From positions 124,001 through 188,000 of the forward strand of contig JAOTVB010000005.1 of the NCBI GenBank assembly GCA_029863605.1: a stretch of DNA of 64,000 bases, given 5' to 3'. Below are positions 16,118 through 48,383 of the stretch, in pieces. Origin of the DNA: Myxococcales bacterium (GTDB lineage Bacteria > Myxococcota_A > Polyangia > Polyangiales > Houyiibacteriaceae). The first letter of the stretch is position 1, and each line of letters begins with the position of its first letter. The notes under the pieces were generated by a model. The model had not been told where the DNA came from and searched no databases. It was given only the letters and a program-made list of their open reading frames with translations. The translations under genes and the position numbers were made by a program.

Positions 16118-16120
16118 CAC

Positions 16121-16795: not shown

Positions 16796-16816
16796 GTACC
16801 TACCTGTCCTGGGACT

Positions 16817-17695
16817 TCACGCCTCGGAGCCTTGTGGAGTCGAGGGTGCTGAGCCGCGCTTGCGAGCGAACTCGACCTGGACTCCTTCGTCTGACGCGTC
16901 CGGGGCTTGTGCACCTTCGTGCTGAACGAACTCTCGGTGGCGTTGCTGCCCTTCGATGCAGGCATCGGCGATGCGAGAGGTGATCAGTTTGATCGAACGG
17001 ATGGCGTCGTCGTTGCCGGGAATGACGAAGTCGATGAGGTCTGGGTCACAATTGGTGTCGGTCAGGGCGATGATGGGAATGTGAAGCTTTCGAGCCTCGC
17101 TAACGGCGATGTGCTCGTTTTGCGGGTCGATGACGAACAGCGCAGCCGGCAGGCCGTTCATCATCTTGATGCCGCCGAGGTATTTCTCGAGCTTCTCGGC
17201 CTCACGACGGAGTGAAAGCGCCTCTTTCTTGCGCAGAGAGTTGATAGTGCCGTCTTCGATCTGTTGCTCGATGTCGCGCAAGCGGTCGATGCCGCCCTTC
17301 ATGGTGCGATAGTTGGTGAGCGTCCCGCCGAGCCATCGACCGGTCGAGTAGAACTGCCCGGCGCGGGTCGCCTCCTCGTAGATGACCTCGGCGGCTTGCC
17401 GCTTGGTGCCGATGAACAGGATGTGACCGCCGCGCGCGACCGCATCGACCACGAACGCGAAGGCGCGCTTGAAAAGCTCCGCCGTCTGGTCGAGGTCGAT
17501 GATGTGAATCCCGTTGCGGGCGCCGTAGATGTAGGGTTGCATCCTCGGGTTCCAGCGCTTGGTCTGATGGCCGAAGTGGACTCCGGCGTCGATCAGGGCG
17601 CGAAGGCCGATCGGTAGGTCACCCGAAGCGACGTCCGGGCTGCCCAGGGCCGCCAGCTCGGGCGCTTCCTGGATCTCGTGAGTTGGTTCTGCCAT
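16817..17695 (-). CDS. rpsB: 30S ribosomal protein S2
   Basis: A 292-residue S2 protein. Family motifs are [32 protein letters not shown] and [17 protein letters not shown] place the start at the ATG at 17695 because an AGGAG Shine-Dalgarno lies 10-14 bases upstream; the frame is open further but the extra residues are unrelated. Both ends carry low-complexity extensions (an acidic/Ala-rich N-terminus and a C-terminal tail of about 35 residues), making it longer than the usual 240-260. Confidence 0.96.
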
Positions 17696-17904
17696 CGCTC
17701 GTTTCTCCTTTCGGTTGCGCTGCCATCCCCCCAGTCGAACAACCCAAGCGCGTAGCCAGGGCACCGGAACGACTGTCGAGCCGGGAGATGTGTGTGATTT
17801 CGGGAACCAAGGCCCCGGCCTCCGAAGAGGCGGCGGCGGTATACCACGGGGGCCCGGAGGCGCCAATTGGCAGAGTCAGCGCCAGAGCCGGTGCCCGTGG
17901 CCTT

Positions 17905-18489
17905 CTAGGGCTTCCTTGACGCCCAAATTGGAGGCTTTTTGGCGGCGGGATCGTGGGCGCCTAGCTCGCGAGCGGCTTCGACCACTTTGGCGGTGGCGTT
18001 CAGGCCTTCCTCGATGTGCGGGGCCCAGGGCGACTGGGTAGCCCGGTCCGCGCCTCGGCGGGCGGCGGTTGCCGACGGCTCGTCTCCCTCGAGCGGGTTC
18101 TTGGGGAGCTCGTCGTAGTAGCCCCGGAAGCTCGTTGTCGGCCCAAGGACACGTCGGAGGCCGTACTTGCCGGTCAGCCACGCCTGCAGTCGCAAGCACG
18201 CATGCTCGCGCACCGCGTCTACGCTCGTTTCATTGTCGAGCCCGAAGTCCGGCACACGAAGGCTCTCTGCGCCTTCGATCATCGAGTGGCAGAGCTCGTG
18301 GAGAATCAGCTGTGCGAGGCAGTCGTCGGGGTCGAGGGTATCTGGCGCTCCGACCACCATCGTGCCTTGTCCGTCGGTCGAGGCGTAGACCTCATTCGAC
18401 CTTTCGACCCGAAACCCGACGCGTTCGGCAACCGTCAGCCAAATGGCGTCGAGCGGGTCCAGATAGATTTGCTCAGCCTTGCGTTCCAC
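17905..18489 (-). CDS. Hypothetical protein with HELCH metalloprotease-like motif
   Basis: A 194-residue soluble protein. The segment DCLAQLILHELCHSMIEG contains HExxH (HELCH, about 65-69), as in zinc metalloproteases, and further acidic and Cys residues follow (NETSVDAVREHACLRL). The family is not known to me. It follows the cardiolipin-synthase-like gene with a single-base gap and is very likely co-transcribed. The C-terminal 50 residues are Ala-rich and look flexible. Confidence 0.72.
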   Translation of the reverse strand: MERKAEQIYLDPLDAIWLTVAERVGFRVERSNEVYASTDGQGTMVVGAPDTLDPDDCLAQLILHELCHSMIEGAESLRVPDFGLDNETSVDAVREHACLRLQAWLTGKYGLRRVLGPTTSFRGYYDELPKNPLEGDEPSATAARRGADRATQSPWAPHIEEGLNATAKVVEAARELGAHDPAAKKPPIWASRKP

Positions 18490-18490
18490 G

Positions 18491-19684
18491 TCACAGCATC
18501 TTGCGAAACAGATAGAAAAAACTGTCTAGCATTCGGACGAGCAGTGGGCGACGCCTCCACTCCTCGTAAGAGATCGGCTTGGCCTGCTCGAGGTCTTCGT
18601 TGAAGCGCTGCTCCATCGCGCCGGCGACCGCAGCATCTTCGATTGCCGCCACGACCTCCAGATTGAAACGCCAAGAGCGATAGTCGAGGTTGTAAGTGCC
18701 CACCGTGCACCACTCGCCGTCGACGATTGCCGTCTTCGAGTGGAGGATCGAGCGTTGCCACTCGAAGAGCTTGATTCCCCCCCGCAAGAGACGTCCGTAG
18801 AGCCGTCGGCCAGCGTACTGTGCCGGAAAGGAGTCGCTCTTCCCGGGGATCATCACCCGAACGTCGACCCCGCGTTCCGCGGCTTGCCGGAGGACCCGGC
18901 GGATGCGCAAGTCGGGAATGAAATAGCTGTTCGTGATGCAGACCGATCGTTTCGCGCTGGCAATGCGGTTCAGGTACGCCCGTCGAATCGCGCGACGCTC
19001 ACCGAAGTAGTGGTTGGCGAGCACCCGCACCCGGCTACCTTCCTCTTCCGGAATTTCGGCGACGGGTGGGATCGAGGGCTTTCCGCCAGGCCTTGGCTCG
19101 ACGATACGTTGCCACGCGTGAACGAAGATATTTCGCATCTGTTCCACGGCTAGACCTTCGATGCGAATCGTGTCGTCGCGCCAGCCTCCGCCGCCTGCGT
19201 CTTCCGGGGCCCATTCGTCGCCGAGATTGATGCCACCGGTGAAGCCGATCCGACGATCGATGATGAGGAGCTTGCGGTGGTCCCGGTGATTGACGACGCC
19301 GATCCGAAAGCGGGCCCGCCAGGGCGCTATAGGATTGTACTGCTCGACCTCGCAGCCTGCGGCACGCATGCGCGCAAACATCCGACCGTCGCTCTGAATG
19401 CTTCCCACCGCATCGTAGATCACCCGTACACGAAGACCCGCCTTCGCCCGCGAAGAAAGCGCCTCTGCAAACTGACGGCCGACCTTGTCCGAGCCAAACC
19501 AGTACATTTCGAGCAAGATTTCACGCTCGGCGGCCTCGATCGCCTCCAGCATCGCCGGAAAGGCCTGCTCACCGTCGTGGAGTAATGTCACACGGTTGCC
19601 CGAAACCAACGTTTCGAAACCCGCCGTCGAGCCGAGAACATTGCGTAACTGACCGTATGACTCCCCCAGCGGACCTATTCCCAC
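18491..19684 (-). CDS. Phospholipase D-family / cardiolipin-synthase-like protein
   Basis: A 397-residue protein with two HKD (PLD) motifs: HRDHRKLLIIDRRIGFTGGIN (about 133-153) and ILHSKTAIVDGEWCTVGTYN (about 310-330). The spacing and the motif IYDAVGSIQSD match bacterial cardiolipin synthases of the ClsB type, which join two phosphatidylglycerols or PG and PE. No N-terminal membrane anchor is seen, as in ClsB. It starts with GTG at 19684. The HELCH-motif gene follows directly. Confidence 0.88.
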   Translation of the reverse strand: MGIGPLGESYGQLRNVLGSTAGFETLVSGNRVTLLHDGEQAFPAMLEAIEAAEREILLEMYWFGSDKVGRQFAEALSSRAKAGLRVRVIYDAVGSIQSDGRMFARMRAAGCEVEQYNPIAPWRARFRIGVVNHRDHRKLLIIDRRIGFTGGINLGDEWAPEDAGGGGWRDDTIRIEGLAVEQMRNIFVHAWQRIVEPRPGGKPSIPPVAEIPEEEGSRVRVLANHYFGERRAIRRAYLNRIASAKRSVCITNSYFIPDLRIRRVLRQAAERGVDVRVMIPGKSDSFPAQYAGRRLYGRLLRGGIKLFEWQRSILHSKTAIVDGEWCTVGTYNLDYRSWRFNLEVVAAIEDAAVAGAMEQRFNEDLEQAKPISYEEWRRRPLLVRMLDSFFYLFRKML

Positions 19685-19758
19685 GTCACCTCGTCTCTGT
19701 TATCGTCGGCCCCGATGAAAACCGTACGCTGTCCGATTTGCAAGGCGGAGTCGAACTG

Positions 19759-20463
19759 ATGAAATATCTTCTCTCCATCGTGGCAGTCGTCGTGATCTTC
19801 GACGCAAGCGCGATGGCACAGGAGGAAGCAGCTGTCGGCACGGTCACCACTCCGGAAGCTTCCGGCGAGTCGCCGGCCGCCGAAGATCCACCCGCGGAGG
19901 ACGACGAGAAGAGCCCCTACTCCAAAAAGGTCGGCGGCTTGCTTCGGATCGAATTTGGCGCGGGTCCATCGGCCTACGACATAGGACAGTTTCGCAACGG
20001 CTTGAACCTCGCCGCGCCGAGCGTCAATGGGCCCGAGTACAGCCTCTCGGCCGGCGTGGGGCTTGGAGGTTTCGTCATTGGGGCGGGCTTTCGCTGGGCG
20101 AACTACAGCGCCTACAACCTCATGAAGTTCGGGCTCGACATCCAGGGAATTCTTCGGTTCATCCCCTACGTTCACCCGATGTTGCGAATCAATTTGTACT
20201 ACGCCGGCACGCGCAACGGCAGCCCGGTCATCGGGTTGACCGACGTCAAATCGAACGGGGGCGGCGTTACGCTCGGCGCGGGGCTTCGAATCCCGATCGT
20301 CCGATGGATATCCTTCGCTTTCACCTTCGATTGGTCGCTGATCGGGCTCGGCGTGTCGGGCGACACCACGGGTGGTCGCGAAAAAGGGAGCTTGATCGGA
20401 CAACAGCTAACGGGGTTGTTCGCAGTGACGTTCCAATTCATCGGAGTGCGAAGGGGGGACTGA
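19759..20463 (+). CDS. Putative outer-membrane beta-barrel protein
   Basis: A 234-residue exported protein. MKYLLSIVAVVVIFDASAMAQ is a signal peptide ending at AMA, an acidic Pro/Glu/Ala linker follows (about 22-52), and the rest alternates hydrophobic and Gly/aromatic residues as in small outer-membrane barrels (GLGGFVIGAGFRWANYSAY, VTLGAGLRIPIVRWISFAFTFDWS). I use the ATG at 19759 because of the signal peptide and the purine-rich GGCGGAG upstream; a longer frame exists. No specific family is recognised. It converges with hemE across a 20-base gap. Confidence 0.7.
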   Translation: MKYLLSIVAVVVIFDASAMAQEEAAVGTVTTPEASGESPAAEDPPAEDDEKSPYSKKVGGLLRIEFGAGPSAYDIGQFRNGLNLAAPSVNGPEYSLSAGVGLGGFVIGAGFRWANYSAYNLMKFGLDIQGILRFIPYVHPMLRINLYYAGTRNGSPVIGLTDVKSNGGGVTLGAGLRIPIVRWISFAFTFDWSLIGLGVSGDTTGGREKGSLIGQQLTGLFAVTFQFIGVRRGD

Positions 20464-20483
20464 TCGATCTCGGCCAGGGCGAT

Positions 20484-21509
20484 TCAGGACTCGCGCTGGC
20501 TAGCGTCGTGGACGTGCTCGACGAGGGCGCGCGCTCGCGCGACTGACGCTTCGGGCATGATCCCGTGCCCCAGATTGAAGATGTGGCCCGGGCGGCCCGC
20601 AGCGCTCGCGAGCACCTCGGAAGCGCTGGCTCGCAGCACCTCGGTGGGCGTAAGAAGCGCCGCCGGGTCCATGTTCCCCTGAAGCCCCACGTCGTCGCCG
20701 AGAACCGACCACGCCTCGTCGATCGAGATGCGCCAGTCGATCCCGATGACGTCCCCGCCTGCTTCCTTCATCCCCGGATACAGTGCCGGATTCCCGGTGC
20801 CGAAGTGGATCGTAGGAACGCTCTTCGGGAGCGCATCGAAGACCGCTTTCGTATGTGGTAGTACGTACCGGCGGTAGTCGGACGGAGAGAGACACCCTAC
20901 CCAGCTATCGAAGAGCTGCACGGCTTGGGCGCCCGCATCGATTTGGGCGATGAGGTAGTCGGCAATCGCGCCGGAGAGTTTCGTCATAAAAGCGTCCCAC
21001 AAGCCCTCATCTGCGTACATCAGCTTTTTCGTTTCGTGGTAGTTCTTCGAACCGCCACCTTCGATCGCATACGATGCGAGCGTGAACGGAGCACCCGCAA
21101 ATCCGATGAGGGGCACCTCGAGCTCTTTTCGCGTCGCTCGGATAGCATCCATGACGTACGAGAGCGAGCCCGCGGCATCGATGCTCTCAGCGACCCCATC
21201 GACCTGCCGGGCGGTGCGGATCGGGCTCAAGATCTTGGGGCCGGCATCGTCGGTGAACTCGAAGCCGATATGCAGCGGCTCGAGCACGAGAAGAATATCC
21301 GCGAAAATGATCCCCGCATCGACACCTAGCTGATCGACCGCGCGGACGGTCACCTCACACGCGAGCTCCGGCGTCTTGCAGAGCTCGATGAAGCTCACCT
21401 TCTCACGAAGCGCACGATATTCCGGCTGATAGCGCCCTGCCTGCCGCATGATCCAAATTGGCGTGTACTCGGTCGGCTCCCGACGGCAGGCCTGCAAAAA
21501 GACGCTCAT
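20484..21509 (-). CDS. hemE: Uroporphyrinogen decarboxylase
   Basis: A 341-residue HemE catalysing the four decarboxylations of uroporphyrinogen III to coproporphyrinogen III in haem synthesis. The signature PIWIMRQAGRYQPEYR (about 15-30) is complete, and FADILLVLEPLHIGFEF and LQGNMDPAALL are typical. The start is the ATG at 21509; a longer open frame upstream reads through the folC terminator hairpin. It is last in the run pgeF-accD-folC-hemE and probably has some independent transcription because of that hairpin. Confidence 0.96.
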   Translation of the reverse strand: MSVFLQACRREPTEYTPIWIMRQAGRYQPEYRALREKVSFIELCKTPELACEVTVRAVDQLGVDAGIIFADILLVLEPLHIGFEFTDDAGPKILSPIRTARQVDGVAESIDAAGSLSYVMDAIRATRKELEVPLIGFAGAPFTLASYAIEGGGSKNYHETKKLMYADEGLWDAFMTKLSGAIADYLIAQIDAGAQAVQLFDSWVGCLSPSDYRRYVLPHTKAVFDALPKSVPTIHFGTGNPALYPGMKEAGGDVIGIDWRISIDEAWSVLGDDVGLQGNMDPAALLTPTEVLRASASEVLASAAGRPGHIFNLGHGIMPEASVARARALVEHVHDASQRES

Positions 21510-21527
21510 CGCAACCGGTTGTAGCGC

Positions 21528-21551
21528 AAAAAAGGGGACAGTCCCCTTTTT
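21528..21551 (-). terminator. Palindromic hairpin at the folC stop
   Basis: GGGGAC and GTCCCC around a central A, flanked by five A on one side and five T on the other, form a near-perfect palindrome overlapping the folC stop codon. On the minus strand it reads as a stem followed by T residues, so it fits a Rho-independent terminator for folC; by symmetry it could act in both directions. Confidence 0.65.
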
Positions 21552-22821
21552 ACATCGCAATGGGCGGATCGGTGCGGGCGCCCTTGACGAGCCCCCGGGC
21601 TTCGGCGACTAGAAAAATCGAGCCGGCTACGACGACCAGGCCATCGGGGCCCGCCGCTCGTGTTGCGCGGGCCAAGCCATCGCGAACACTCCGCGCGACC
21701 GTGCCCTTCGTGATTTGAGAGAAGCGGTCCGGGCTCTCGGCGCGTCGCACAGTGGGCGCGGTAAACACGACGCGGTTCACTTCATCGTCGAATGCGCGGA
21801 GCATGCCGCGATGGTCCTTATCCTTCATCGCACCGAACAAGAGGACGACGCGTCCTGGAAACACGAGCTCCTCGAGGTAGCGCGCGAGGGTTCGACAACC
21901 GGCAGCGTTGTGAGCAGCGTCAAAGAGGAATGCGGGTCGGCCCGGGTGCCACTCGAGTCGGCCGGGCCATTTCGCGCGGCGAAGACCCCGACGCACGCTC
22001 GCCTCGGAGATTTCGAAGCCGCGATCGCTAAGCTCTTCGATCGCAGCCAACGCGCAGGCTGCATTGTCGCCTTGGTAACGGCCGCGCAAGCCGAGTTGCA
22101 ACCGACTCCAGTGGCGATCGCCGACCCGGGCCGAGAGGGTCCCGTCGTCCCAGTGGGCATCGAAGTCACGCCCGATGTATCGGAGAGGTGCACCAACGGC
22201 GTTTGCTCGGCGACCAAGGGTACGGCGTACGGTGCTATTCCGCGCGCCAACCACACAAGGGACTCCCGCTTTGAGAACACCTGCCTTCTCGCGAGCGATC
22301 TTCGAGAGAGTGTCACCTAGAATGCGCTGGTGCTCGAGGCTGACGTTGGTGATGACCGAAACCGCGGGGGTCACGATGTTGGTTGCGTCGAGCCGCCCAC
22401 CAAGACCGACCTCGAGAACGACCACATCGCACTCGGCATCCCGAAACACCTCGAAGGCGAGCAGAGCCGTGTATTCGAAGAAGCTGAGGGTCGGAAGCCT
22501 GGAATCGGCGCGAAGGTCCTCGAGTCGTTCCGCGGCCTCGCGCTCGCGGATCGGTCTGCCGTCGATGCGAACTCGCTCGACGAATCGCTGCAGGTGAGGC
22601 GATGTGAACTGCCCGGTACGATAGCCCGCCGCTCGAAGCACCGCTTCGATCATGGTCGTAACGCTACCTTTTCCGTTCGAGCCGGCAACGTGCACATGGC
22701 ATAGGCCCCGCTCTGGGTTTCCACGGATCTTTGCGGCCTTGGCCATGCGATCGAGCCCAAGCTTGATGCCGCGTGACTCCAAGCCATAGAGCCAAGACAG
22801 CGCTTCCTGGTAGCGAGTCAC
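21550..22821 (-). CDS. folC: Folylpolyglutamate synthase / dihydrofolate synthase
   Basis: A 423-residue Mur-ligase-family protein. The ATP-binding P-loop is HVAGSNGKGSVTTMIEAVL (about 44-62), and FTSPHLQRFVERVRIDG, LGGRLDATNIV and FDAAHNAAG are FolC signatures. It adds glutamate to dihydropteroate and folates. It overlaps the upstream accD by four bases (ATGA), an arrangement often seen in bacteria for accD-folC. Confidence 0.95.
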   Translation of the reverse strand: MTRYQEALSWLYGLESRGIKLGLDRMAKAAKIRGNPERGLCHVHVAGSNGKGSVTTMIEAVLRAAGYRTGQFTSPHLQRFVERVRIDGRPIREREAAERLEDLRADSRLPTLSFFEYTALLAFEVFRDAECDVVVLEVGLGGRLDATNIVTPAVSVITNVSLEHQRILGDTLSKIAREKAGVLKAGVPCVVGARNSTVRRTLGRRANAVGAPLRYIGRDFDAHWDDGTLSARVGDRHWSRLQLGLRGRYQGDNAACALAAIEELSDRGFEISEASVRRGLRRAKWPGRLEWHPGRPAFLFDAAHNAAGCRTLARYLEELVFPGRVVLLFGAMKDKDHRGMLRAFDDEVNRVVFTAPTVRRAESPDRFSQITKGTVARSVRDGLARATRAAGPDGLVVVAGSIFLVAEARGLVKGARTDPPIAM

Positions 22822-23657
22822 GCTGACAGATACTCGACGAGATGGGCGATGTTGCCGCGCATCTCGTGGCGCGTGGAGATCATGTCAATCATGCCGTGCT
22901 CGAGCAGAAACTCGGCACGCTGAAACCCTTCGGGTAACTTCTGACCGATGGTGTCTTCGATGACCCGCGGCCCGGCAAAGCCGATGAGCGCGCCGGGCTC
23001 TGCGATGTTGACGTCGCCTTGAAGAGCAAAGCTCGCCGCAACGCCACCGGTCGTCGGGTTGAGCAAGACACTGATGAACGGAGCCCCCGCGGCACGGACT
23101 TTGCTTCGTGCAGCTAGCGTCTTGGCCATCTGCATGAGGGAAAGCGAACCCTCTTGCATCCGCGCGCCCCCCGAGCAGGACAGAAGCACGACCGGCTGCC
23201 TCTTTTGTGCTCCGCGCTCCATCATTCGCGTGACCACCTCGCCCACCACCGAACCCATCGAGCCCCCCATGAAGCGGAACACGAAGACCCCCAGCTGCAC
23301 TGGCCGCCCCTCGATCTTAGCTTCTCCCGCAAGAATCGCGTCGTTCACCCCCGTCTCGCGACGTGCCGCTTCGATGCGCGCTCGGTAGGGCTTGGTGTCG
23401 ACAAATGAGAGCGGATCGCTGGCGGTGAGCTCGGTGTCATGCGGAGTCCACGTGCCTTCGTCTGCGAGCAGCTCGATCCACTGCTCGGCTCGGAGATGAA
23501 AGTGAAAGCCACAAACGGGGCAGACCTCGAGGTTCCGCTCGAAGTCCTCTTTCTTCGCCGCATCGCCGCACGCGTCGCACTTCCGAAATAGACCTTCACC
23601 AAGCGTCTTCTTCTCGGACGCATCGACGCCGGCCTTGGTCTTGACGAACTCTGCCAT
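22818..23657 (-). CDS. accD: Acetyl-CoA carboxylase carboxyltransferase beta subunit
   Basis: A 279-residue AccD. The N-terminal four-Cys zinc finger is present (KCDACGDA and CPVCGFHF), followed by the crotonase-fold carboxyltransferase with GGSMGSVVGEVV, SCSGGARMQEG and LNPTTGGVAAS. With AccA it transfers CO2 from biotin to acetyl-CoA to form malonyl-CoA. The start is the ATG at 23657; upstream residues in the same frame are not family-like. No accA is in this window. Confidence 0.96.
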   Translation of the reverse strand: MAEFVKTKAGVDASEKKTLGEGLFRKCDACGDAAKKEDFERNLEVCPVCGFHFHLRAEQWIELLADEGTWTPHDTELTASDPLSFVDTKPYRARIEAARRETGVNDAILAGEAKIEGRPVQLGVFVFRFMGGSMGSVVGEVVTRMMERGAQKRQPVVLLSCSGGARMQEGSLSLMQMAKTLAARSKVRAAGAPFISVLLNPTTGGVAASFALQGDVNIAEPGALIGFAGPRVIEDTIGQKLPEGFQRAEFLLEHGMIDMISTRHEMRGNIAHLVEYLSA

Positions 23658-23707
23658 TCGCGTGTGGCTAGCATGAAGCCTTGGGCCGAGCGACCCGTAG
23701 AGCAGAG

Positions 23708-24469
23708 TCACGCGGGCTTGCGCGCAATGATTACCGAAAGATGACGCCCCGTCTCCCCGTGGTCACGACGATGCGAGAAGAAGCGGCCCACGTCGGTGTG
23801 CGTACATCCCCCGAGGTCGTCGATCGCTCGATCGGGGACGCCGCTGCGACGAAGTTGAATGCGGATCAGTGCCGCGAGGTCGCCGTGTGGTTTCGGGCCT
23901 GCGCGTTCGATGACTGAGTCGTCACCAGCCGCGTTTTCCATTTCAGCAGCGACCTCTTCGCCGATCTCGAAGGCGCCGACGCGGATGTGCGGGCCGATCG
24001 CTACGACGAGCTCGGCTGGGTCGTGGGCAAGCGCCTCGATCCCCGCGGACACGACCCCAGCGACTGCACCGCGCCAACCTGCATGCACCGCAGCGACATG
24101 TCCGCTTGGCGGGTGCCCGATCAGGATTGGGACGCAATCCGCAGTACGTGCCGCAACTCCGTGCTCAGCAACGCGGACGATCAGCCCGTCCCCCTCGATG
24201 TCGGCGATCGCTTCAGGACGATCGCGGGGGAGGATCTCGCGAATCGCGGTTGCATGCACCTGTCGTTGTTCGAAAAGGCGATCGCGTGTGAGACCGACTG
24301 CTCGCAGGAAGCGTTCGCGGTTCTCGCGGACGGCGTTCTCGTCGTCGCCAAGATGATACCCGAGGTTCAGCGTATCGCGGGGCGCTTGACTCACTCCTCC
24401 GAGGCGCGTTGCGAAACCGTGACGAAAGCCATGTCGATCCAGCAGGGTCGAACGCAAAGCGCGCACCAT
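23708..24469 (-). CDS. pgeF: Purine nucleoside phosphorylase YfiH / PgeF family
   Basis: A 253-residue protein of the laccase-domain YfiH/PgeF family. The metal ligands sit in the motifs FEQRQVHA, RTADCVPI and VHAGWRG, and CTHTDVGRFFSHRRD closes the protein. Members have been described as multicopper polyphenol oxidases, as purine nucleoside phosphorylases/adenosine deaminases, and as a peptidoglycan editing factor that removes misincorporated L-Ser. Starts at 24469 or 24505 are both possible. It lies 50 bases upstream of accD on the same strand. Confidence 0.88.
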   Translation of the reverse strand: MVRALRSTLLDRHGFRHGFATRLGGVSQAPRDTLNLGYHLGDDENAVRENRERFLRAVGLTRDRLFEQRQVHATAIREILPRDRPEAIADIEGDGLIVRVAEHGVAARTADCVPILIGHPPSGHVAAVHAGWRGAVAGVVSAGIEALAHDPAELVVAIGPHIRVGAFEIGEEVAAEMENAAGDDSVIERAGPKPHGDLAALIRIQLRRSGVPDRAIDDLGGCTHTDVGRFFSHRRDHGETGRHLSVIIARKPA

Positions 24470-24552
24470 GGGGTCTATACCACGACGGATTTGCGAGAGC
24501 CGCAACTCCGCGCTAAGAGGCGCTTCTTAGCGACTTAACTTGGAGATAACTT

Positions 24553-24975
24553 ATGCATCGATTTCCTTCCAAGGGATGGACGAAGGCGTATAAGAGCGCC
24601 ATCAATTACAACCTCGCGTTTCGCAAAGCGGCAGAGCCGTGGACATTTGGATCCGTGGCTTTGATCGTCCAATGCGATCTGTCGTTGGGACTCGAGCAAG
24701 ACACAGGGGTGATCCTCGACGTGCATGAAGGCAAGTGCCGTGACGCGCGATTCGTCGAGGGGCACGCGCGACCCCCGGAGGCGGAGTTCGTGACCGTAGG
24801 CTCGTACCAGCAATGGAAAGACATCATCGAAGGAAGGCAGGACCCGACGAAGGCGATGATCGAGGGCAGGCTCGAGCTTGCCAGGGGACACCTGCCGACG
24901 TTGATCAGATTCCGGGAAGCCTCCCGCGAGCTCGTTGCGAGCGCGAGCAGGGTTCCTACGGAATTCCTGGTCTAG
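24553..24975 (+). CDS. SCP2 sterol-carrier-like protein
   Basis: A 140-residue soluble protein whose second half resembles an SCP2 lipid-binding domain: FVTVGSYQQWKDIIEGRQDPTKAMIEGRLELARGHLPTL follows the usual pattern of a Trp, an Asp-Pro and a Gly-rich turn before the last helix. A purine-rich TTGGAG lies upstream of the ATG. It is divergent from pgeF and lies just before the tRNA-Leu locus; its role is unknown beyond likely lipid or acyl-CoA binding. Confidence 0.68.
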   Translation: MHRFPSKGWTKAYKSAINYNLAFRKAAEPWTFGSVALIVQCDLSLGLEQDTGVILDVHEGKCRDARFVEGHARPPEAEFVTVGSYQQWKDIIEGRQDPTKAMIEGRLELARGHLPTLIRFREASRELVASASRVPTEFLV

Positions 24976-24999
24976 GCGCTTACCGAACAGCGAACCACC

Positions 25000-25027
25000 T
25001 TGACACTGGGCGTCGCTTGATTACTTT
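25000..25027 (+). promoter_or_regulatory. Promoter of the truncated tRNA-Leu copy
   Basis: TTGACA at 25000-25005 and TACTTT at 25022-25027 are separated by 16 bases, just upstream of the tRNA-Leu 5' fragment. The arrangement mirrors that of the intact gene 158 bases downstream. Confidence 0.5.
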
Positions 25028-25044
25028 CCGCTCCCTGCATTCCT

Positions 25045-25082
25045 GCGGAAGTGGCGGAACTGGCAGACGCGCTAGACTAAGG
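25045..25082 (+). pseudogene. Truncated tRNA-Leu (5' half duplicate)
   Basis: This 38-base stretch is identical to the first 38 bases of the intact tRNA-Leu at 25204, ending inside the anticodon loop. The 18 bases before it also match, apart from one extra T in the intact copy. After 25082 the sequence diverges completely, so no tRNA can fold. It is a partial duplication that kept its own promoter-like signals. Confidence 0.85.
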
Positions 25083-25157
25083 CGCTCGCGTGGGGGCGGC
25101 GGGGTGGGGATGATGGGCCCACACTCCCGCATCTACACTGCCGAACATTGAGCCAAC

Positions 25158-25185
25158 TTGACACACGACGCCACGCGGGTAGCTT
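25158..25185 (+). promoter_or_regulatory. Promoter of tRNA-Leu
   Basis: TTGACA (25158-25163) and TAGCTT (25180-25185) are separated by 16 bases and lie 18 bases before the tRNA-Leu 5' end. The strong -35 fits a stable-RNA promoter. Confidence 0.5.
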
Positions 25186-25203
25186 CCGCTCCCTGCATTC
25201 CTT

Positions 25204-25287
25204 GCGGAAGTGGCGGAACTGGCAGACGCGCTAGACTAAGGATCTAGTGAGGTAACACTCGTGGAGGTTCGAGTCCTCTCTTCCGCA
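25204..25287 (+). tRNA. tRNA-Leu (anticodon AAG as read)
   Basis: A complete class II tRNA. The acceptor GCGGAAG pairs with CTTCCGC, the D arm contains AACTGGCAGA, the anticodon stem is CTAGA/TCTAG, the long variable arm is GAG-GTAACA-CTC, and the T arm is GGAGG-TTCGAGT-CCTCT. The anticodon loop CTAAGGA gives AAG, which reads leucine CUU. An A at the wobble position is unusual for bacterial Leu tRNAs. The discriminator is A and CCA is not encoded. Confidence 0.9.
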
Positions 25288-25291
25288 CTGC

Positions 25292-25311
25292 ACGCCGCCT
25301 CCGGGCGGCGT
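25292..25311 (+). terminator. Hairpin after tRNA-Leu
   Basis: A perfect 8-bp stem (ACGCCGCC/GGCGGCGT) with a TCCG loop begins 4 bases after the tRNA end. It lacks a strong T run but sits where a tRNA terminator is expected. Confidence 0.5.
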
Positions 25312-25434
25312 TCGTGCTTCGAGAGGCCTCTCACCTACGGTGTACTCGGCCCCTTCGGGACCTGCGTACTGCGCCTGGAATCCGACAACTCCGTGGACCT
25401 TGTCCACTCCGTCTCGTCGTATTCCAGTCACACA

Positions 25435-25466
25435 CGAGTCCTCTCTTCCGCACCCAATCATTTCGG
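25435..25466 (+). repeat. Second copy of the tRNA-Leu 3' end (attachment-site-like)
   Basis: CGAGTCCTCTCTTCCGCAC at 25435-25453 is identical to the T-arm/acceptor 3' end of the tRNA at 25270-25288. From 25443 it also matches the sequence at 32431-32454: 13 identical bases, a 4-base gap of the same length, then ATTTCGG. Direct repeats of a tRNA 3' end are the usual footprint of site-specific integration, but no integrase gene is seen nearby. Confidence 0.6.
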
Positions 25467-26136: not shown

Positions 26137-29100
26137 ATGGGTCGTCGTGCTTGGGAGAATCGCTTTGCCGCACTGGTGACGTTGCTGGCCATCTGGGGCT
26201 GGTCCGCCACCGCCGATGCTTCGCATTTTCGTCATGGAACGATCCAATGGCGGATTCCAGACCCGCTTGGCGCTCCGCTCACCGTCGAGTTCACGGTCAC
26301 CTCAAGTTGGCGCAGCTCATTCATTGGCTCCACCGACCTGAACTTTGGCGATGGAACGAGCAACGGCAGCCAGACCGGCACCACGATCGGAACCGGCGTC
26401 GACTCCGTCGGCAACCCCTATTCGACGCAACAGTACGTGGTGACCCACACCTATGCTTCGGCCGGGTACTACAAGGCTTTCTACGACAGCTGCTGTCGCG
26501 TCGCAGGTCTGGAAAACGGCGCAAACGCGTCCTTCCGCGTCGAAACCAACATCATTATCGAAGCAGACGGAAGCAACCTGTCGCCTCCAGGAACCGCAAG
26601 CCCCGCGATCATTCAAATGCAGGCGGGTGGCATACGGACACATGATTTCTTCTTCTTCGACCCGGACGGCGATCCCGTGACTTGTCGCTTCGCGACCTCT
26701 GCCGAGACCGGCATTCCAGCCAGCGAGGTCATTCCTAGCGTGCCGGCCAGCGGTGCGCAGCCGGCGATCACCGAATCGATGGGCGCCTGTCAGATCCAGT
26801 GGGACCTCACGGCTGCGGTAGTGGGACAGCAATATGTGCTTCATTTCACGCTCGAATCGCCGAGCGCAGGCGGCACGAGCTCGACGGCGATCGACCTCAT
26901 CGTCGAGATGGTTTCAACGCCCATTCCGAGCTGCCCAGATAGTGATTCGTTCACCGTGCCCGTCGGCACGCCATTTTCGCAGGTCGTGGGAGCGACCGAT
27001 ACCGGCGACCTCACGATCGATGTCATCGGCCTTCCTCCAGGGGCGACTCTGACGCCACCTGCAGGCACGACGGGACCGAGCCCGGTTTCGACGACACTCG
27101 ATTGGACGCCCGCATTCTCAGACAACGGAACGACGAACTACACCGTCATCACCTTTACCAATCCGGCAGATATCACCGGTAGCTGCACGCTCACGATCAA
27201 TGTGCCGGCGGTATGCGGGAACGGGCTGACCGAGCAGGGCGAAGCCTGCGACGACGGAAACATGATCCCCGGCGACGGCTGCAACGCCGACTGCTTGAAG
27301 GAGAACGGGCAAACCTGCACGGATCGCAACCAGTGCGAAAGCGGGGTGTGCGACGCCGCCGAAAATCCGGACGTCTGCGAGCCCGCCAATAGCTGTGGCA
27401 ACAGCGACCTCGAAGGCAGCGAAGTCTGTGACGATGGCAATCCCGACGCCGGGGACGGATGTAGCGACTCGTGCGCCGTCGAACCAGGGTGGACCTGTCC
27501 GGCCCCAGGGATGCCGTGTCAGGAGATCTGCGGCGACAGCATGGTCGTCGGTGGTGAAACCTGCGATGACGGCGACGCCAACCTCAACGATGCCTGCCCG
27601 GATGGCGCGACCGGAAGCTGCCTCGTGGCGAGCTGTGGCGACGGATTCCTCTGGAATACCGATGGCGGATCCGAGGCCTGCGACGACGGCAACATTGCAA
27701 CCGGCGATGGATGCGACGACAGTTGCTTGAAAGAGCTGGGCGAGAGCTGTACGGCGGGCGCGGAATGTGCAAGTACGATCTGCGATACCGTTGGGAGCAA
27801 TACGTGTGAGCCCGCGGATACCTGTGGAAACGGGACCGTCGAAACGGGGGAGAGCTGCGACGACGGAAACACCGCCGACGCGGACGGGTGCGACAGCGTC
27901 TGTCTGCGAGAAGAGGGTGCCGGTTGCAGCATGGGCTCCGAGTGCGCGTCCGGACAGTGTGACGCCGGGGGGCTCGGCTGCGTGGCCTGCTTCGACGACC
28001 AAACCGGCACCACAACCGACTCGGGCTGCAGCGGGATTGCCCCATACTGTGACACGAGCGGCATGTTCCCATTCTGCATCGCGGCGTGCTCGGATAGTGG
28101 CGCTGGTGCGACGGACGTCGGTTGCTCTGGGACGGATAACGCCTGTGAAGAGACCGGCAGCAATCCGGTTTGCGTGGACTGCACCGACGCGTTGGATTGC
28201 TCGCTGAGTGATGCGTGTGACGTAGCTACCAATACCTGCGTGGAAGGCTGCTTCGCAGACACAGATTGCCGAGTCGCCACCGAGCCCGTCTGCGACACGT
28301 CGGCCTCAACGCCAGGCCTCTGTGTGACCTGTATCAACGATCAGGCAGGGGTGATGCCGGACGAAGGCTGCACCAATCCGGCGCTTCCGCTCTGCAACGG
28401 GGCGTCGGGCGTGGCCGGGACCGAATGCGCTTTTTGTCTAGACGACATGAGCGGAACCGCGATGGACAGCGGCTGTACGAGCTCCGATGCGGCACTGTGC
28501 GACACCTCCGTCGAGGGCGGAGCCTGTGTGGAATGCATTGCAGATAACGACTGCCCGGGGCTCCAGATCTGCACCACAAGCCAAACCTGTGAATATCCCG
28601 ACACGGACGGGGATGGGCTAACCGACCAATTCGACACGGACGACGATGGGGACGGCGTTCCTGACAATCAAGAAGGCGGCGGAACCGACGTTTCGGTCGA
28701 CACCGACGGGGATGGCGTCCCCGACTACGCAGATCCCGACGAGATGAGCTGCACCGACGACGACTCCAACGGTATCTGCGATGCGCTCCCGAGCAGTGTC
28801 GACCAGGATGGAGACGGGATTCCAAACCATCTCGACCTCGATAGCGACGGGGATGGAGTTCCGGATGCGACCGAGGGCCACGATGCCGACGGAGACGGTC
28901 TGGCTGACGCCATAGCTTCGGGCAACGACGACGACGGCGATGGCTTGGACGACGGGTTCGATCCGGATTGTTCGGGGATGCCCGTGGGTTGCGCTGCCGA
29001 CGGCCTGCCCGCAGCGGCGCACGACCGGGATGGCGACGGAGCGCCGGACTACCTCGACGCCGACAGCGACAATGACGGCCTCCTCGATCGGGTGGAGGCG

Positions 29101-31302
29101 TTCGATGGAAACGGCGATGGGGTTCCCGAAGCGGTTCCAAGTGGCGTCGACGCCGACGGCAATGGCCTCGACGATGCCTTCGACGTTGCTCAGGGCGGGA
29201 TCGGCACGACGGGTCAAGACACGGACAGCGACAGTCGCCCCGACTATCTCGATCAGGACAGCGACGGCGACGGCATCACCGACCGAGTCGAGTGTCCTGA
29301 CCCAACCGCTTGTCCCGACGCCGATGGCGATGGCGCGCCAGATGCGCTCGACGCCGATTCGGACGACGATGGAATTTCGGATACCATCGAAGGACACGAC
29401 GGCGATGCCGATGGCTTACCCGACTTCGCGCCGCTCGGAGCGGATGACGACGAGGATGGGCTCGACGATGCCTACGACCTCGATATGGCCGGAGGGGTTC
29501 CAGCTCCGCTTCCCGATCGGGATGGGGATGGAACGCCGGACTACCGAGACCCGGACGATGATGGCGACGGCGTGGGCTCTGCGTTCGAGTGCACGGACCC
29601 GGTGGCTGGATGCCCCGATGGCGATGGCGACGGGGTACCGGATTACCTCGATGCAGACCAAAGCCCAGTTGACAGCGACGGGGACGGGATTCCCGATGTC
29701 GTGGAATGCGAAGGAGATGTATCGAGCTGCCGGGATACCGATGGCAACGGAACCCCGGATCACCAGGATCCCGACGACGATGGCGACGGGGTCCTGACCT
29801 CGGTGGAGTGCACTACGAGTCCCGACCTTTGCGACATGGATGGTGATGGCCTTCCTGACCATCGGGACATCGACAGCGACGGAGACGGCATCGACGACTC
29901 GGTCGAATGCGTGGACGGGGCGAGCTGTGCCGACTCAGACGGTGACGGCGTACCCGACTACCTCGATCTCGACAGCGACGACGATGGCATTGCCGACGCG
30001 ATCGAAGGACACGATGCGAACATGGACGGAGTGCCGGACGCGGTTGCGCTCGCGATGGACACCGATATGGACGGCCTCGATGATGCGTTCGACCCGGATG
30101 ACGGAGGTGTATTTGCCCCGACGCAGGACACCAACGACGATGGCACGCCAGATTACCAGGACGCGGACGATGATGGAGACCGCATCGACACGTCCTTCGA
30201 GTGCACCGATCCGGGCGCAGGGTGTCCGAACGGCGACGGTGACGGAATGCCGGACTACCTCGATGCCGACGACGGATTGAGCGACACCGATGGGGACGGG
30301 ATTCCCGATGTCGTCGAATGCCCGCCGCCAGGCGATCCGGTGGGCGATCCATTCAACTGTCCCGACACGGACGGCGACGGGATGCCGGATTTCAACGATC
30401 CCGATGACGACGACGACGGGATCGACACCGCAAACGAGAACTACGATGGCGACTCCGACCCGACCGACCAGGATAGCGACGGTGATGGCGCGCCGGACTA
30501 CCTCGACGACGACGACGACGACGACGGCACGTCGACCGCGGGCGAGTGCCCCGATTTCGCAGCCGGCTGTGCCGACAGCGACGGCGACGGAACTCCGGAT
30601 TACCTCGATGTCTGCGGCGACGACATGGTGAGCGTCATCGATGTCGGCTCGGGCTGGGAGGAGTGCGACGACGGGAACGCGATCGACGGCGACGGATGCG
30701 ACGCCGCTTGCCGTCTCGAATCGGATGTCCCGGACACCGACGGCGATGGGATTATCGACGATGTCGAATGCCCACCGCCCGGAAGCCCGCTTCAGCCGTC
30801 GAGCTGCCCAGACACCGATGGGGATGGGATGTTTGACTTCGAAGATCCGGACGATGACGGAGACGGCGTCAATACGGCAGACGAAAGCTACGATGGCGAC
30901 TCGGATCCGACCGATGACGACACCGATGGCGACGACATTCCGAACTATCTCGATTCAGATGACGACGATGACGGCATCGATACGATGGACGAAGTTGCTG
31001 CGTCGGGCGAGCTTGGCAATGACGACGTCGACGGGGATGGAGACGTCAACTGGCTCGATACCGACAGCGATGGCGACGGCATTGCAGATGGTGACGAACC
31101 CACGGATGCCGACTCGAATGGGGTTCCTGACTACCTCGAGGCGCCTATGGATGTACCCGACTTCGGGGGATTGACTCTGGAAGGCGGCGGCGGTCGCGAA
31201 AATTGTCACGTGCAGATGACAGGCGGCCAAAGTCCTGCGGGTGCTCTATTCTTCCTGTTGGCGGCCTTGTCCTTGGTGGCTCGTCGCTCCCGTCGCCTCT
31301 AA
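26137..31302 (+). CDS. Giant secreted Cys-rich / thrombospondin-3-repeat protein with myxosortase-type C-terminus
   Basis: A 1721-residue exported protein. A signal peptide (about 1-29, ending ADA) precedes a PKD-like domain starting [14 protein letters not shown] and a second beta-rich domain (about 270-365). Then come DUF4215-type myxobacterial Cys-rich repeats (about 365-620; CGNG, CDDGN, GDGC patterns), further Cys-rich modules (about 620-820), and a very long run of Asp-rich thrombospondin type-3-like calcium-binding repeats (about 825-1675; DTDGDGIPD types). The end has a Cys, a hydrophobic segment ([14 protein letters not shown]) and RRSRRL, as expected for myxosortase surface anchoring. 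Probably a long, Ca2+-stiffened surface adhesin or matrix protein. A purine-rich GAGGGGGA precedes the ATG. Confidence 0.88.
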
Positions 31303-31939: not shown

Positions 31940-32512
31940 TCAGCGCACGACGGGCACCAGCAAGTGCGAGTCGTACTGCGCGCCGGTGTGGATCGAGTGG
32001 GTGCCAAGGTTGACGTCGTCCGAGTGGTCGTGGGCGAGCGATGGATGCTCAAAGAGATCCTGCCCTTGAACGACGACCCGGAGCGACTCTCCTGCGCGGA
32101 AGAGCGTGCTGCTGGGGAGAATCTCGACCTCCACGGGAACGATCTCGTCCGGGGTGAGCGGCTGGGGGTCGCTATGGGAGAGCCACGGCTGCCACGGGGT
32201 CGAGCGCTCTTCGTCGAGCGCTCGCTCCGACACGCGTAGCCAACCAAGAGCCACCGGAGTCTCCGCGAAGCCAGCCTTCCCGTGGAAGTGGACGACCTCG
32301 CCCTGCGCGTTGAGCTTCTCGATGCCGACGAAGAGGTCCATGTCGGTCCCCTCGGTCGTGGAGACCCAGAGCTTCAGCTTCATGTTTCCGGTCAGCTCGG
32401 TGTCCTCGTCGAAGGTGATCGTGAAGGTCGCTCTTCCGCACCCTTGGATTTCGGGTAGTTGCGTTACACCACTAGACTCTTCGGCAGGTCGCCACCGTTT
32501 CGCCACTTCCAT
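31940..32512 (-). pseudogene. C-terminal remnant of a CocE/NonD-family hydrolase
   Basis: The 190-residue frame carries only the jelly-roll C-terminal domain of X-Pro dipeptidyl-peptidase/CocE-type hydrolases (FDEDTELTGNMKLKLWVSTT, GWLRVSERALDEERS, DEIVPVEVEILPSS, RAGESLRVVVQGQDL, ending YDSHLLVPVV). The catalytic alpha/beta-hydrolase domain, normally upstream, is absent. Family similarity begins near ATFTITFDEDTEL; the preceding residues look unrelated, and the join coincides with the tRNA-Leu-like motif at 32431-32443. I regard it as a truncated relic. Confidence 0.75.
32431..32454 (+). repeat. Third tRNA-Leu-3'-end-like copy (right boundary candidate)
   Basis: CTCTTCCGCACCC at 32431-32443 and ATTTCGG at 32448-32454 match 25443-25466 at 20 of 24 positions with the same spacing. 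It lies exactly at the 5' breakpoint of the CocE relic, so it may be the right end of a 7-kb inserted segment. Confidence 0.5.
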
Positions 32513-32602: not shown

Positions 32603-32686
32603 GCTCACTCAGGCTCCTGAATTGCGCAGAACGCCTTATGAGTAAACTCTGCGAGACTAAGACAGGGCCTTTGTAGTGACTATCAG
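32603..32686 (-). repeat. Dispersed 83-84 bp repeat, copy A (inverted)
   Basis: Inverted relative to copies B and C. Nearly identical to 41751-41833 and 48301-48383: shared blocks include GTCTTAGTCTCGCAGAGTTT, AAGGCGTTCTGCGCAATTCA and the end CTGAGTGAGC. Copy A has one extra base in the last block. It contains no gene. Confidence 0.85.
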
Positions 32687-32756
32687 CGAGATTCAGCGAG
32701 ATGGAGTGGAGATGCAGTACGGCGATCCAAACGCGAAACGAAGTGCGCCGCAAGTC

Positions 32757-32786
32757 GACATAACGAGCTAGTACCGCGAAATTCGG
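32757..32786 (+). repeat. Right copy of the direct repeat pair
   Basis: GACATAAC, GAG, CTAGTACCGCG, A, AATTCGG; the partner is at 31621-31649. Between the copies lie the CocE relic and repeat copy A. Confidence 0.65.
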
Positions 32787-32864
32787 CTCTCAGATTGAGC
32801 CCGATTGGCCAATAGAGCTTTTTGCGGCGATCGGGTGACCAGTGGCTCATCCTCGAAGCAGGAG

Positions 32865-32925: not shown

Positions 32926-34014
32926 CTACCTTGGTGGGCCTCCCCGACCTTTGCCCTTTTTCGCCTTGCAGCTTACGTCGAGGGTGCCGTTGCCTTGAGC
33001 TCCTCCAAACCCGCCGATGCGTACGAGGAACGTATCGCCGGCATTTGCCTGCACCTTGATTTCCGACTGGAGGTCGCAGCTGTCGTCGTTACACGCCAGG
33101 ACGGACCCGCTTTGCGACGGACAGCTTGTTCCTGGATAGAGGGCTAGCTTCGTGTCGTAGGAGCTTCCGCACAGACTCGCGGTGACCGTGCCCGTGCAAG
33201 AAGCCGTGTATCGGTACCAAACATCACTTTCGACGCCGGAATCGCCGAAGAAAGTGCAACTCAGAGGCTCGGAGGGTCCGTCCGTCGTCGCGAACACGTT
33301 GCTAAACGAGGTGGCGCCGTCCGAAACTGCGATGGCGTTGCTGCAGTTGTCGTTCGGTGGTGGCACTTGCTCGGGGATCACGACCGCCACAGAGGCGACA
33401 TTGTTGGAGTAATCCGATTCGACCAAGAGGCCTGACGGATTGACCTCGATCTCGAGCACATAGTTCCCGGGAGGAACGTCGGTGACATCGACGTACTGGC
33501 AGTCGAGGTGAGGACCATAGACGTCGGCCCAGCCAGCTTGAATCCCTTGATCGGAGCAGGTGAATCGCGCCTTGCCTCGGCCGGAGCCGAACCGGTAGGT
33601 GTCCTGAAGGCAGAAGCTGGCCTTGTTGCCCGTCGCGACGATGCCATTCGGGCCGACGAGACGGTAGTCGGCAAATTCCTCGAAATGGTAGTGCCCGTGG
33701 CACTCGTGAAAATGAAACAGTGGGTTTCCAACGGGGTCGCCCATCACGAGGTCGGCGTTGCCAATGTTACGGCTCTCCGTGGTGAACCGGAGCAAGGTCC
33801 GGACACCGGGTAGCGCGCAGCCTTCGGCCACCGCGCAATGTGAGTCGGAAAACTCTTCGATCGACACGTAGGGATCGATCACATCGGGATTGATGATGAG
33901 ATCGGGCTGCGAGGGTGCGCTCGCAGCTCCGGGGATAAACGCCACCGTGGCCAAAAATACGACCGCGGGGGCTCCTAGAACGAAACCGATTCGGCGATTG
34001 CCGCGTCGAGCCAT
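32926..34014 (-). CDS. Secreted bacterial lysyl oxidase
   Basis: A 362-residue exported protein with a lysyl oxidase domain. After a signal peptide (about 1-33), the copper site FHFHECHGHYHFEEFADY (about 100-117) matches the animal motif, with His106, 108 and 110 as likely ligands. Lys131 (GNKASFCLQDT) and Tyr166 (GWADVYGPHLDCQY) are where the lysyl-tyrosyl-quinone cofactor forms, and DVTDVPPGNYVLEIEVNP and ESDYSNNV are signature stretches. The C-terminal 150 residues (NDNCSNAIAVSDG, DVWYRYTASCTG) form a second beta-rich domain ending in a basic tail. It would oxidise lysine or other primary amines outside the cell. I prefer the ATG at 34014, spaced 7 bases from AAAGGA. Confidence 0.9.
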   Translation of the reverse strand: MARRGNRRIGFVLGAPAVVFLATVAFIPGAASAPSQPDLIINPDVIDPYVSIEEFSDSHCAVAEGCALPGVRTLLRFTTESRNIGNADLVMGDPVGNPLFHFHECHGHYHFEEFADYRLVGPNGIVATGNKASFCLQDTYRFGSGRGKARFTCSDQGIQAGWADVYGPHLDCQYVDVTDVPPGNYVLEIEVNPSGLLVESDYSNNVASVAVVIPEQVPPPNDNCSNAIAVSDGATSFSNVFATTDGPSEPLSCTFFGDSGVESDVWYRYTASCTGTVTASLCGSSYDTKLALYPGTSCPSQSGSVLACNDDSCDLQSEIKVQANAGDTFLVRIGGFGGAQGNGTLDVSCKAKKGKGRGGPPR

Positions 34015-34079: not shown

Positions 34080-34469
34080 CTACTCATTACAAGGTTGGCC
34101 GACACACATCTCCAGGAAGGCCGCAGCCGCTGCTCGGATGGCGCTGCTGCCCGGGCCCTTTGCTCGCAGCGCACCGTCGATGCCGTCGCAGTCCGTATCG
34201 TATGGTTCAGTAGTGTCGCAGCAAATGCCGACCCACTCTTCTGGATGGTTCTTCCAGTAGCCTGGTGAGCAGGGCTCCCCGCCGTCACAGGAGGGATCTT
34301 TCGAGCAGTCGGGATCATCGCAATCGACGGCCTTGTCGCCGTCGTTGTCTTTGCCGTCGTCACAGATTTCGACCTTCTTCTGTGCCAGGGAATCCATCGG
34401 GCCACCGCTACCTATGACGAGAAGTCCGAAGCAGCCAAAGACGAGGAGTAATAGAGAGAGTGTTCGCAT
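34080..34469 (-). CDS. Small secreted Cys/Asp-rich protein
   Basis: A 129-residue exported protein. The ATG at 34469 has AGGAAA upstream and begins a hydrophobic signal sequence (MRTLSLLLLVFGCFGLLVIG). A short EICDDGKDNDGDKAVDCDDPDC stretch, typical of myxobacterial MopE-like and surface proteins, is followed by SPGYWKNHPEEW, a motif seen in many secreted proteins of unknown role. It lies 65 bases upstream of the lysyl oxidase gene on the same strand and may be co-transcribed. Confidence 0.75.
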   Translation of the reverse strand: MRTLSLLLLVFGCFGLLVIGSGGPMDSLAQKKVEICDDGKDNDGDKAVDCDDPDCSKDPSCDGGEPCSPGYWKNHPEEWVGICCDTTEPYDTDCDGIDGALRAKGPGSSAIRAAAAAFLEMCVGQPCNE

Positions 34470-36704: not shown

Positions 36705-36926
36705 TTAGGGCTGAAAACTCTCGGGGGCGCAGAATGCGCAGCGCAAGGTTGGGTCGTCGAAGTAGCCGAAGGCCCCACAGAACTCCACATCGGGCGGCTG
36801 GCAATCGATATTGCAATCGCCGGATCCACCGCAATCACTGCAAACGAGGCCCGGACAACCCCCACTGCCACCGCAGGCAATCCCCCCGAGAGCCGAGATA
36901 CAGAAGACGATCAACAATTTCTTCAT
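36705..36926 (-). CDS. Small Cys-rich lipoprotein
   Basis: A 73-residue protein starting at the ATG at 36926, preceded by a strong AAGGAGG. MKKLLIVFCISALGGIACGG is a lipoprotein signal peptide with a lipobox ending at Cys18 or so, and the mature part has about ten Cys in short CxxC-like spacings. It lies 15 bases upstream of the larger lipoprotein gene on the same strand, so the two are probably co-expressed. Function unknown. Confidence 0.75.
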   Translation of the reverse strand: MKKLLIVFCISALGGIACGGSGGCPGLVCSDCGGSGDCNIDCQPPDVEFCGAFGYFDDPTLRCAFCAPESFQP

Positions 36927-36950
36927 GACAACCTCCTTGGTCAAGTCTTC

Positions 36951-41596: not shown

Positions 41597-41750
41597 GATC
41601 AACACCTATGGAGCGGGCAAGGTTCCATTGGTATCGCAGTTTCCGGGAATGTCCCACCCGAAAAAAGGCGTAGCCGAAACAAAGACGCTCTTGTTGGCGG
41701 CAAAAGGCCACTGGCGCGGACGCTGGCGCTGGCGCGGAGCTGGCGCGGAG

Positions 41751-41833
41751 CTGGTAGTCACTACAAACGCCCTGTCTTAGTCTCGCAGAGTTTACTCATA
41801 AGGCGTTCTGCGCAATTCAGGAGCTGAGTGAGC
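41751..41833 (+). repeat. Dispersed 83-84 bp repeat, copy B
   Basis: Copy B differs from copy C at only a few positions. It begins GCTGGTAGTCACTAC-like and ends CTGAGTGAGC. It lies between the M19-like gene and a tRNA-Glu relic. Confidence 0.85.
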
Positions 41834-47560: not shown

Positions 47561-48304
47561 TCAGCGGCCCGTGGCCGGCCCTCGTTCCCGTCTACGTGCG
47601 TAGAGCACGAGTGCGCAGAGACACGACAGGACCAGGCTTGCCGGTGCGCCATTCGAGGCTCCGCGGCGAAGACTGCACGCGCCCGTCAGGATGTCAAAGC
47701 TTCGGGCTGCGTCTCTTGGTGCCGACTGCCCGACCCCGGTGCTACAGGCGCCGAGCACATCTCCGTGACGCAGGTGGGCGCGCGTCGCATTAGAGTTGAC
47801 AGTAATCGTTCGAGCATTTTCCGGGTTGCCTCTCGGGATGTGACAGAGCGTCACCTTGTTGTCCCCGTCGCAGCTGTCCGTGTCCTCATTGCAGGTCGTC
47901 TCGGATGGACACGGATCTCCCGTGCTCACACAGCCCTCGACGAGAGCACAGATCTCCTGCCCGGTGCAAAAGAGTCCGTCGTCTGGACAGAGGTTGTCGT
48001 TAGGCGTGTTCACGCAGAGTTGCTCGACCTCGTCGCAGGCGTCGAGAGTGCAGTCGATGCCGTCACTGCAGTCGACCGGCGTGCCGGCCTCGCAGGTCCC
48101 CGCGCCGTCGCAGGTCTCGTCGCCATTGCAGAACTCTCCATCCGGACAGGGACTACCCGCCGGCTCGAACTGGCAGCTCGCGCTGCAGCAGTCGCTATCC
48201 AGGATGTTCCCGTCGTCACACTCCTCGCCGGGGTCGACAATGCCATCTCCGCAGCCCCCAAGCGGATCGCAGGTGTCTGTCGCCTCGTTGCAGACCGTGG
48301 CTGA
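47561..48304 (-). pseudogene. 5'-truncated Cys-rich surface protein with myxosortase-type end
   Basis: The open frame runs from the edge of repeat copy C to 47561. The first readable residues are already DUF4215-like (TVCNEATDTCDPLGGCGDGI, then CDDGNILDSDCCSASC and CNGDETCDGAGTC) and continue to NKVTLCHIPRGNPENARTIT and a C-terminus with a Cys, a hydrophobic segment (PASLVLSCLCALVLYA) and RRRERG, as for myxosortase substrates. There is no signal peptide: the frame meets a stop inside the repeat at 48310. A GTG at 48013 is the only normal in-frame start, in mid-domain. Repeat copy C therefore appears to have replaced the 5' end. Confidence 0.8.
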
Positions 48305-48383
48305 TAGTCACTACCAAGGCCCTGTCTTAGTCTCGCAAAGTTAACTTATAAGGCGTTCTGCGCAATTCAGGAGCTGAGTGAGC
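48301..48383 (+). repeat. Dispersed 83-84 bp repeat, copy C
   Basis: Same sense as copy B, with a few substitutions (AAAGTTAACTTATAAGG in the middle). Its left edge coincides with the 5' break of the Cys-rich gene above. Confidence 0.85.

Follow-up and report, generated by a model that had tools for sequence, protein, structure and literature searches.

The lysyl oxidase gene and its product

The window, that is the whole stretch of 64,000 nucleotides analysed here, is part of contig C17 of genome G000, a member of the order that contains Sorangium and Sandaracinus. On its minus strand, an intact open reading frame runs from ATG at 34014 to the stop codon at 32926 (32926-34014) and encodes a protein of 362 aa. 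In the profile search, residues 70-211 matched PF01186 (Lysyl_oxidase) with 124 bits (E 8.4e-36), about six times the cut-off of 20.4 bits, and the sole significant PDB sequence match was human LOXL2 (5ze3; E 1.9e-32), with an amine oxidase domain 37-38% identical to the window protein. Based on these two E-values, the identification as lysyl oxidase (LOX) is far beyond chance. The protein was divided into three parts: a putative Sec signal peptide of residues 1-33, ending in GAASA before a proline (33916-34014, minus strand); the LOX catalytic domain of residues 37-216 (33367-33906, minus strand); and a C-terminal domain of residues 218-350 (32965-33363, minus strand). The putative signal peptide, read by eye, has the basic n-region, the hydrophobic core and the ASA-proline junction typical of Sec signals, consistent with the export proposed in the sequence-only reading.

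The protein is predicted to be a copper amine oxidase of the LOX family that is exported and whose gene is accessory cargo on a genomic island (probability roughly 0.75). This value covers the enzymatic identity; confidence in the biological use is much lower. Comparison with the orthologue in G012, a genome of the same genus, in which the LOX domain is 79% identical, gave a dN/dS of 0.19 for the whole gene (LOX domain 0.17, C-terminal domain 0.15), indicating that both domains are under purifying selection; the domain ratios are rough because dS is high (0.85 and 1.6). The lysyl oxidase is genuine and probably active.

The predicted copper-binding histidines, H103, H106, H108 and H110, are located in HECHGHYH (33685-33708, minus strand), and the HxHxH site is complete, with H106/H108/H110 aligned on LOXL2 H626/H628/H630. 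The putative lysyl-tyrosyl-quinone (LTQ) cofactor would be formed from Lys131 (33622-33624, minus strand), aligned with LOX K320 and LOXL2 K653, and Tyr166 (33517-33519, minus strand), aligned with LOX Y355 and LOXL2 Y689. In LOXL2, the function of the equivalent residues is established, HxHxH for copper binding and K653/Y689 for the LTQ cofactor (PMC9180022, PMC9694262). A bacterial LOX with both cofactor residues, as first proposed from the letters alone, was therefore borne out, and the residue numbers given then (FHECHGHYH from 102, Lys131, Tyr166, and DVTDVPPGNY at 176) are correct.

His103, the fourth, animal-type histidine, aligns with human LOX His289 and LOXL2 H623. This first histidine was reported to be absent from bacterial LOX sequences (PMC4448552) and from myxobacterial LOX sequences (PMC6508830). 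In our alignment it was present in 12 of the 64 non-redundant prokaryotic LOX domains, the carriers being the window protein, its genus-mate L031, Planctomycetota (L032, L134, L139, L140 and others) and a few members of other phyla; the remaining Myxococcota LOX have Ser, Gly, Asp or Ala at this position in nearly all cases. Against the two published comparisons, bacteria can thus have the animal-type copper motif with four histidines, which is unusual among Myxococcota. Since mutation of H623 in LOXL2 lowers LTQ below 50%, His103 may matter for the window protein. Mutation of LOXL2 His652 likewise leaves LTQ below 50%; this position is occupied by Asn130 in the window protein and is variable in about half of the prokaryotic homologues aligned.

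Six cysteines (60, 66, 105, 135, 153 and 172) match the LOXL2 pairs C573-C625, C579-C695 and C657-C673, making three complete putative disulfides (C60-C105, C66-C172 and C135-C153 by prediction), and both partners of LOXL2 C663-C685 are missing, as in most prokaryotic LOX. For as many as 63 non-redundant prokaryotic LOX domains, each cysteine was scored as present or absent. The pairs seen in the LOXL2 crystal were concordant, with 0, 1, 0 and 1 discordant rows, and the alternative pairs proposed for LOX were discordant in 8, 14, 56 and 39 rows. This prokaryotic pattern supports the disulfides of the LOXL2 crystal, and not the proposal for bovine LOX. Covariation of cysteine pairs was also considered as proof of pairing and was set aside: the counts are strong, but they fall short of formal proof because they reflect only a handful of independent changes on the tree.

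An AlphaFold2 model was built with 32 sequences, and pLDDT was mostly 89-97 in the LOX domain and mixed, in part low, in the C-terminal domain. Residues 33-216 of the predicted model superpose on LOXL2 (5ze3) with Z 20.8 and 2.2 Å over 179 residues. Such a model cannot reveal cofactor formation; in the crystal of the LOXL2 precursor, K653 and Y689 are 16.6 Å apart. Altogether the window protein shares with LOXL2 the fold, HxHxH, the first histidine (H623), the K653/Y689 pair and three of the five disulfides, but lacks SRCR domains, C663-C685, C732-C746 and His652, and adds the C-terminal domain.

This C-terminal domain, noticed previously as an extra beta domain, was recovered as a predicted beta-sandwich. 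The match to PF23759 is weak in the window protein (8e-4) and stands at 1.8e-15 in the G012 orthologue, which has two copies of the domain; within G000, the LOX protein is its sole carrier. The best Foldseek/VIA matches of residues 218-350 were PPC folds and the collagen-binding folds of ColG/ColH, with Z about 10 (ColG CBD 10.6), nearly tied with PliG and SIDT1 (Z 9-10) for a domain of which part has low pLDDT. The PPC fold is a generic one. The domain is described here as PPC-like, with no ligand assigned.

Genomic island at tRNA-Leu

The LOX gene is located within a hypervariable island (25455-51840). The flanks, 10415-25455 and 51840-64000, are syntenic with contig C12 of the sister species G017, at 85-90% identity; between them lie 26.4 kb here versus 33.7 kb of unrelated DNA in G017, with short repeats alone in common. 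A tRNA-Leu(AAG) gene (25204-25288, plus strand) forms the left edge of the island, and a repeat of the tRNA 3' end lies at 25435-25453. Repeat comparison identified a further, partial att-like copy of this 3' end (CTCTTCCGCACCC) at 32431-32443 on the plus strand. The remnant of a CocE/PepX_C hydrolase gene (PF08530; 31940-32431, minus strand) is truncated on its 5' side at this repeat, and is 88-90% identical in DNA to the ends of genes of 620-627 aa with open frames in G010 and G013. The tRNA-Leu 3'-end repeats and the hydrolase cut exactly at 32431 are signs of integration at the tRNA gene.

Directly downstream of LOX lies a dispersed repeat of about 130 bp (32688-32819, plus strand), and the same repeat directly follows the G012 orthologue. 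Next to it is a dispersed 85-bp intergenic repeat (32603-32687, plus strand), found again at 41750-41833 and 48300-48383. Throughout the island, here as well as in G017, copies of the 85-bp repeat occur at 92-98% identity, without clear fold or known type, those on C12 of G017 being at 95024, 98291, 100840, 114712 and 125107. An integron cassette was considered and rejected, for the 85-bp and 130-bp repeats fold no better than shuffled sequences (z -1.5 to +0.8) and, by eye, the repeats beside LOX do not fit the core-site consensus of attC. Repeats of another kind occur at 6088-6594 of the window, where internal tandem repeats within 6093-6404, with 75-88% identity among the copies, encode ARFFVVRRFL-like repeats in one frame.

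The G012 orthologue is located on an 8.1-kb contig, flanked by a MobA/VirD2-like relaxase and by an integrase of the phage type. A binning error is possible for this contig because the G012 assembly is fragmented, but is less likely because the same repeat of about 130 bp follows LOX in both genomes. The LOX gene is accessory, and it was probably acquired; gain by transfer is supported by this genomic setting, which shows that such a gene can be moved with an island.

Distribution and relatives

LOX genes were detected in 54 of the 193 related genomes. Within the genus, they are present in 3 of 19 genomes, namely G000, G012 and G017, but G012 is the only other one with LOX of the window type, the three copies of G017 belonging to a different, distant subfamily. 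A search of plasmids gave distant matches only, from Streptomyces and Gemmatirosa, with up to 33% identity. As early as 2015, LOX genes had been described in bacteria, myxobacteria included, and the window protein is an added member of a known family with bacterial precedent; what is new here is mainly the retention of the animal-like first histidine and the location of the gene on a probably acquired island.

The myxobacterial LOX (Sorangium, Polyangium, Sandaracinus, Plesiocystis and Stigmatella) share with the window protein the family, the phylum, the LTQ pair and the copper site (PMC4448552, PMC6508830), at mostly 36-52% identity. Unlike the window protein, those aligned lack the first histidine, having Ser, Gly, Asp or Ala in its place, and those examined at full length carry other accessory domains. 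The closest relative outside the genus is L032 (55% identity), in a Planctomycetota/Verrucomicrobiota set with L134 and L034. The first histidine is kept in L032 and L134, as in the window protein; C579 and C695 are lacking from L032 and L034, of which the extra regions are N-terminal, versus C-terminal in the window protein. Two trees placed the window protein, together with its orthologue, near Planctomycetota/Verrucomicrobiota sequences and apart from the main cluster of Myxococcota LOX, but the AU test did not reject a single Myxococcota LOX clade (p 0.35), and for this reason no donor is named.

HTU-LOX of Haloterrigena turkmenica, the one prokaryotic LOX for which a biochemical characterization was found, is active; it shares the copper and LTQ residues with the window protein and, unlike it, is archaeal and has no PPC-like domain described (PMC6452851). 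HTU-LOX is a BAPN-sensitive, broad-specificity amine oxidase in vitro, oxidizing taurine, histamine, polymyxin and aminoglycosides, and its activity was undetectable in its host (PMC6452851). In the open literature, no established function was found for any bacterial lysyl oxidase.

Neighbouring proteins and possible use of the enzyme

The sequence-only reading had placed the gene in a cluster of Cys-rich and Lys-poor surface proteins, a description that holds for most of the exported neighbours, with two small Lys-containing exceptions (34080-34466 and 36705-36938). Cys makes up 1.7-14% of the exported neighbours (backbone median 0.7%), and Lys in most of them 0.2-2.1% (backbone median 3.5%). 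Lysine accounts for 3 of 1721, 3 of 537 and 4 of 473 residues in the large Cys-rich neighbours, which would thus be poor LOX substrates, being almost lysine-free. The largest, an exported acidic protein of 1721 aa (26137-31302) with 24% Asp+Glu, 3 Lys and 95 Cys, has myxo_disulf_rpt (TIGR02232) and long DxDxDG repeats.

About 65 bases upstream of the LOX ATG, and possibly co-transcribed with LOX, is the gene for a small exported protein that is rich in Cys and has the motif CSPGYWKNH (34080-34466, minus strand). This protein has 7 Lys among its 128 residues and a sub-threshold match to the NF033662 acidic double-disulfide repeat. No orthologue was found, including beside other LOX genes, where matches were to the short acidic repeat only; it was therefore rejected as a conserved partner, since this repeat is generic. 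When the open reading frames of 45 LOX loci were compared all against all, no conserved partner gene was detected, a single kinase-like cluster alone being present in more than three loci, close relatives aside. A conserved operon was likewise rejected, the island being hypervariable and no neighbour recurring as a partner in the 45 loci.

For the mature enzyme, we propose that primary amines, including exposed lysines, would be oxidized to aldehydes, yielding NH3 and H2O2 as well, and that the PPC-like domain may hold the enzyme on a surface or a polymer. By analogy with the archaeal enzyme, the most likely use would be that of a broad-specificity extracellular amine oxidase, and not of a dedicated cross-linker of neighbouring proteins. 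This reading is favoured because the neighbours are mostly Lys-poor, no conserved partner gene or collagen domain was found, and HTU-LOX oxidizes a wide range of amines. Such an enzyme could conceivably alter surface proteins, whether of the producing cell or of other cells, scavenge amines or produce H2O2.

Scavenging or detoxification as the specific purpose, with free amines or amine antibiotics oxidized outside the cell for nitrogen or for protection, is a tentative possibility: the substrates of HTU-LOX listed above agree with it and an island suits a conditionally useful gene, but no gene for amine uptake or catabolism was seen beside LOX, and the whole case for it is the analogy with the archaeal enzyme. 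Extracellular cross-linking of matrix or prey material, the idea raised originally, appears doubtful. On this view, a dedicated enzyme would oxidize lysines so that the proteins carrying them cross-link, be they surface or matrix proteins of the cell itself or bound prey material, and the PPC-like domain would serve as its anchor. An exported LOX fold with the full set of catalytic residues, the ColG/ColH collagen-binding domains among the best fold matches (Z 10.6) and the small Lys-containing Cys-rich protein just upstream all agree with this. Against it, the large neighbouring surface proteins have next to no lysine, the comparison of LOX loci gave no conserved partner, PliG and SIDT1 score nearly as high for the generic PPC fold, and a search of the genome for the collagen domain PF01391 gave no match, so that neither a Lys-rich partner nearby nor a collagen-like protein in the genome was found. 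A wider proposal is improbable: in it, animal-like bacterial LOX (four-His motif, KASFCLxDT, ESDYSNN) fused to PPC-like binding domains would form a mobile class that passes between Planctomycetota and Myxococcota on islands targeting tRNA genes and carries out true protein cross-linking at the surface. Most unlikely is a non-catalytic protein in which the LOX domain is kept as a binding module without LTQ, a state suggested by the degenerate LOX domains of the order that lack His, Lys and Tyr (for example the first domain of L028) and by the replacement of His652 by Asn in the window protein, but opposed by the retention of HxHxH, Lys, Tyr and three disulfide pairs under purifying selection.

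As a predicted broad-specificity amine oxidase, the window LOX represents a compact Myxococcota enzyme for testing the bacterial use of LTQ chemistry.

Other architectures were observed among the related genomes. Tandem-LOX proteins, with one strong and one weak domain, are encoded in G133, G149, G150, G157, G168 and G172 and at L028 (G179:C279), in which the weak first domain, without His, Lys and Tyr, makes a pseudoenzyme-enzyme pair with the second. At L076 (3314-10429; G017:C18), the LOX domain is included within a protein of 2372 aa with Cys-rich repeats, and belongs to a divergent subfamily with a copper motif of the GHGHPH/GHGHGH type.
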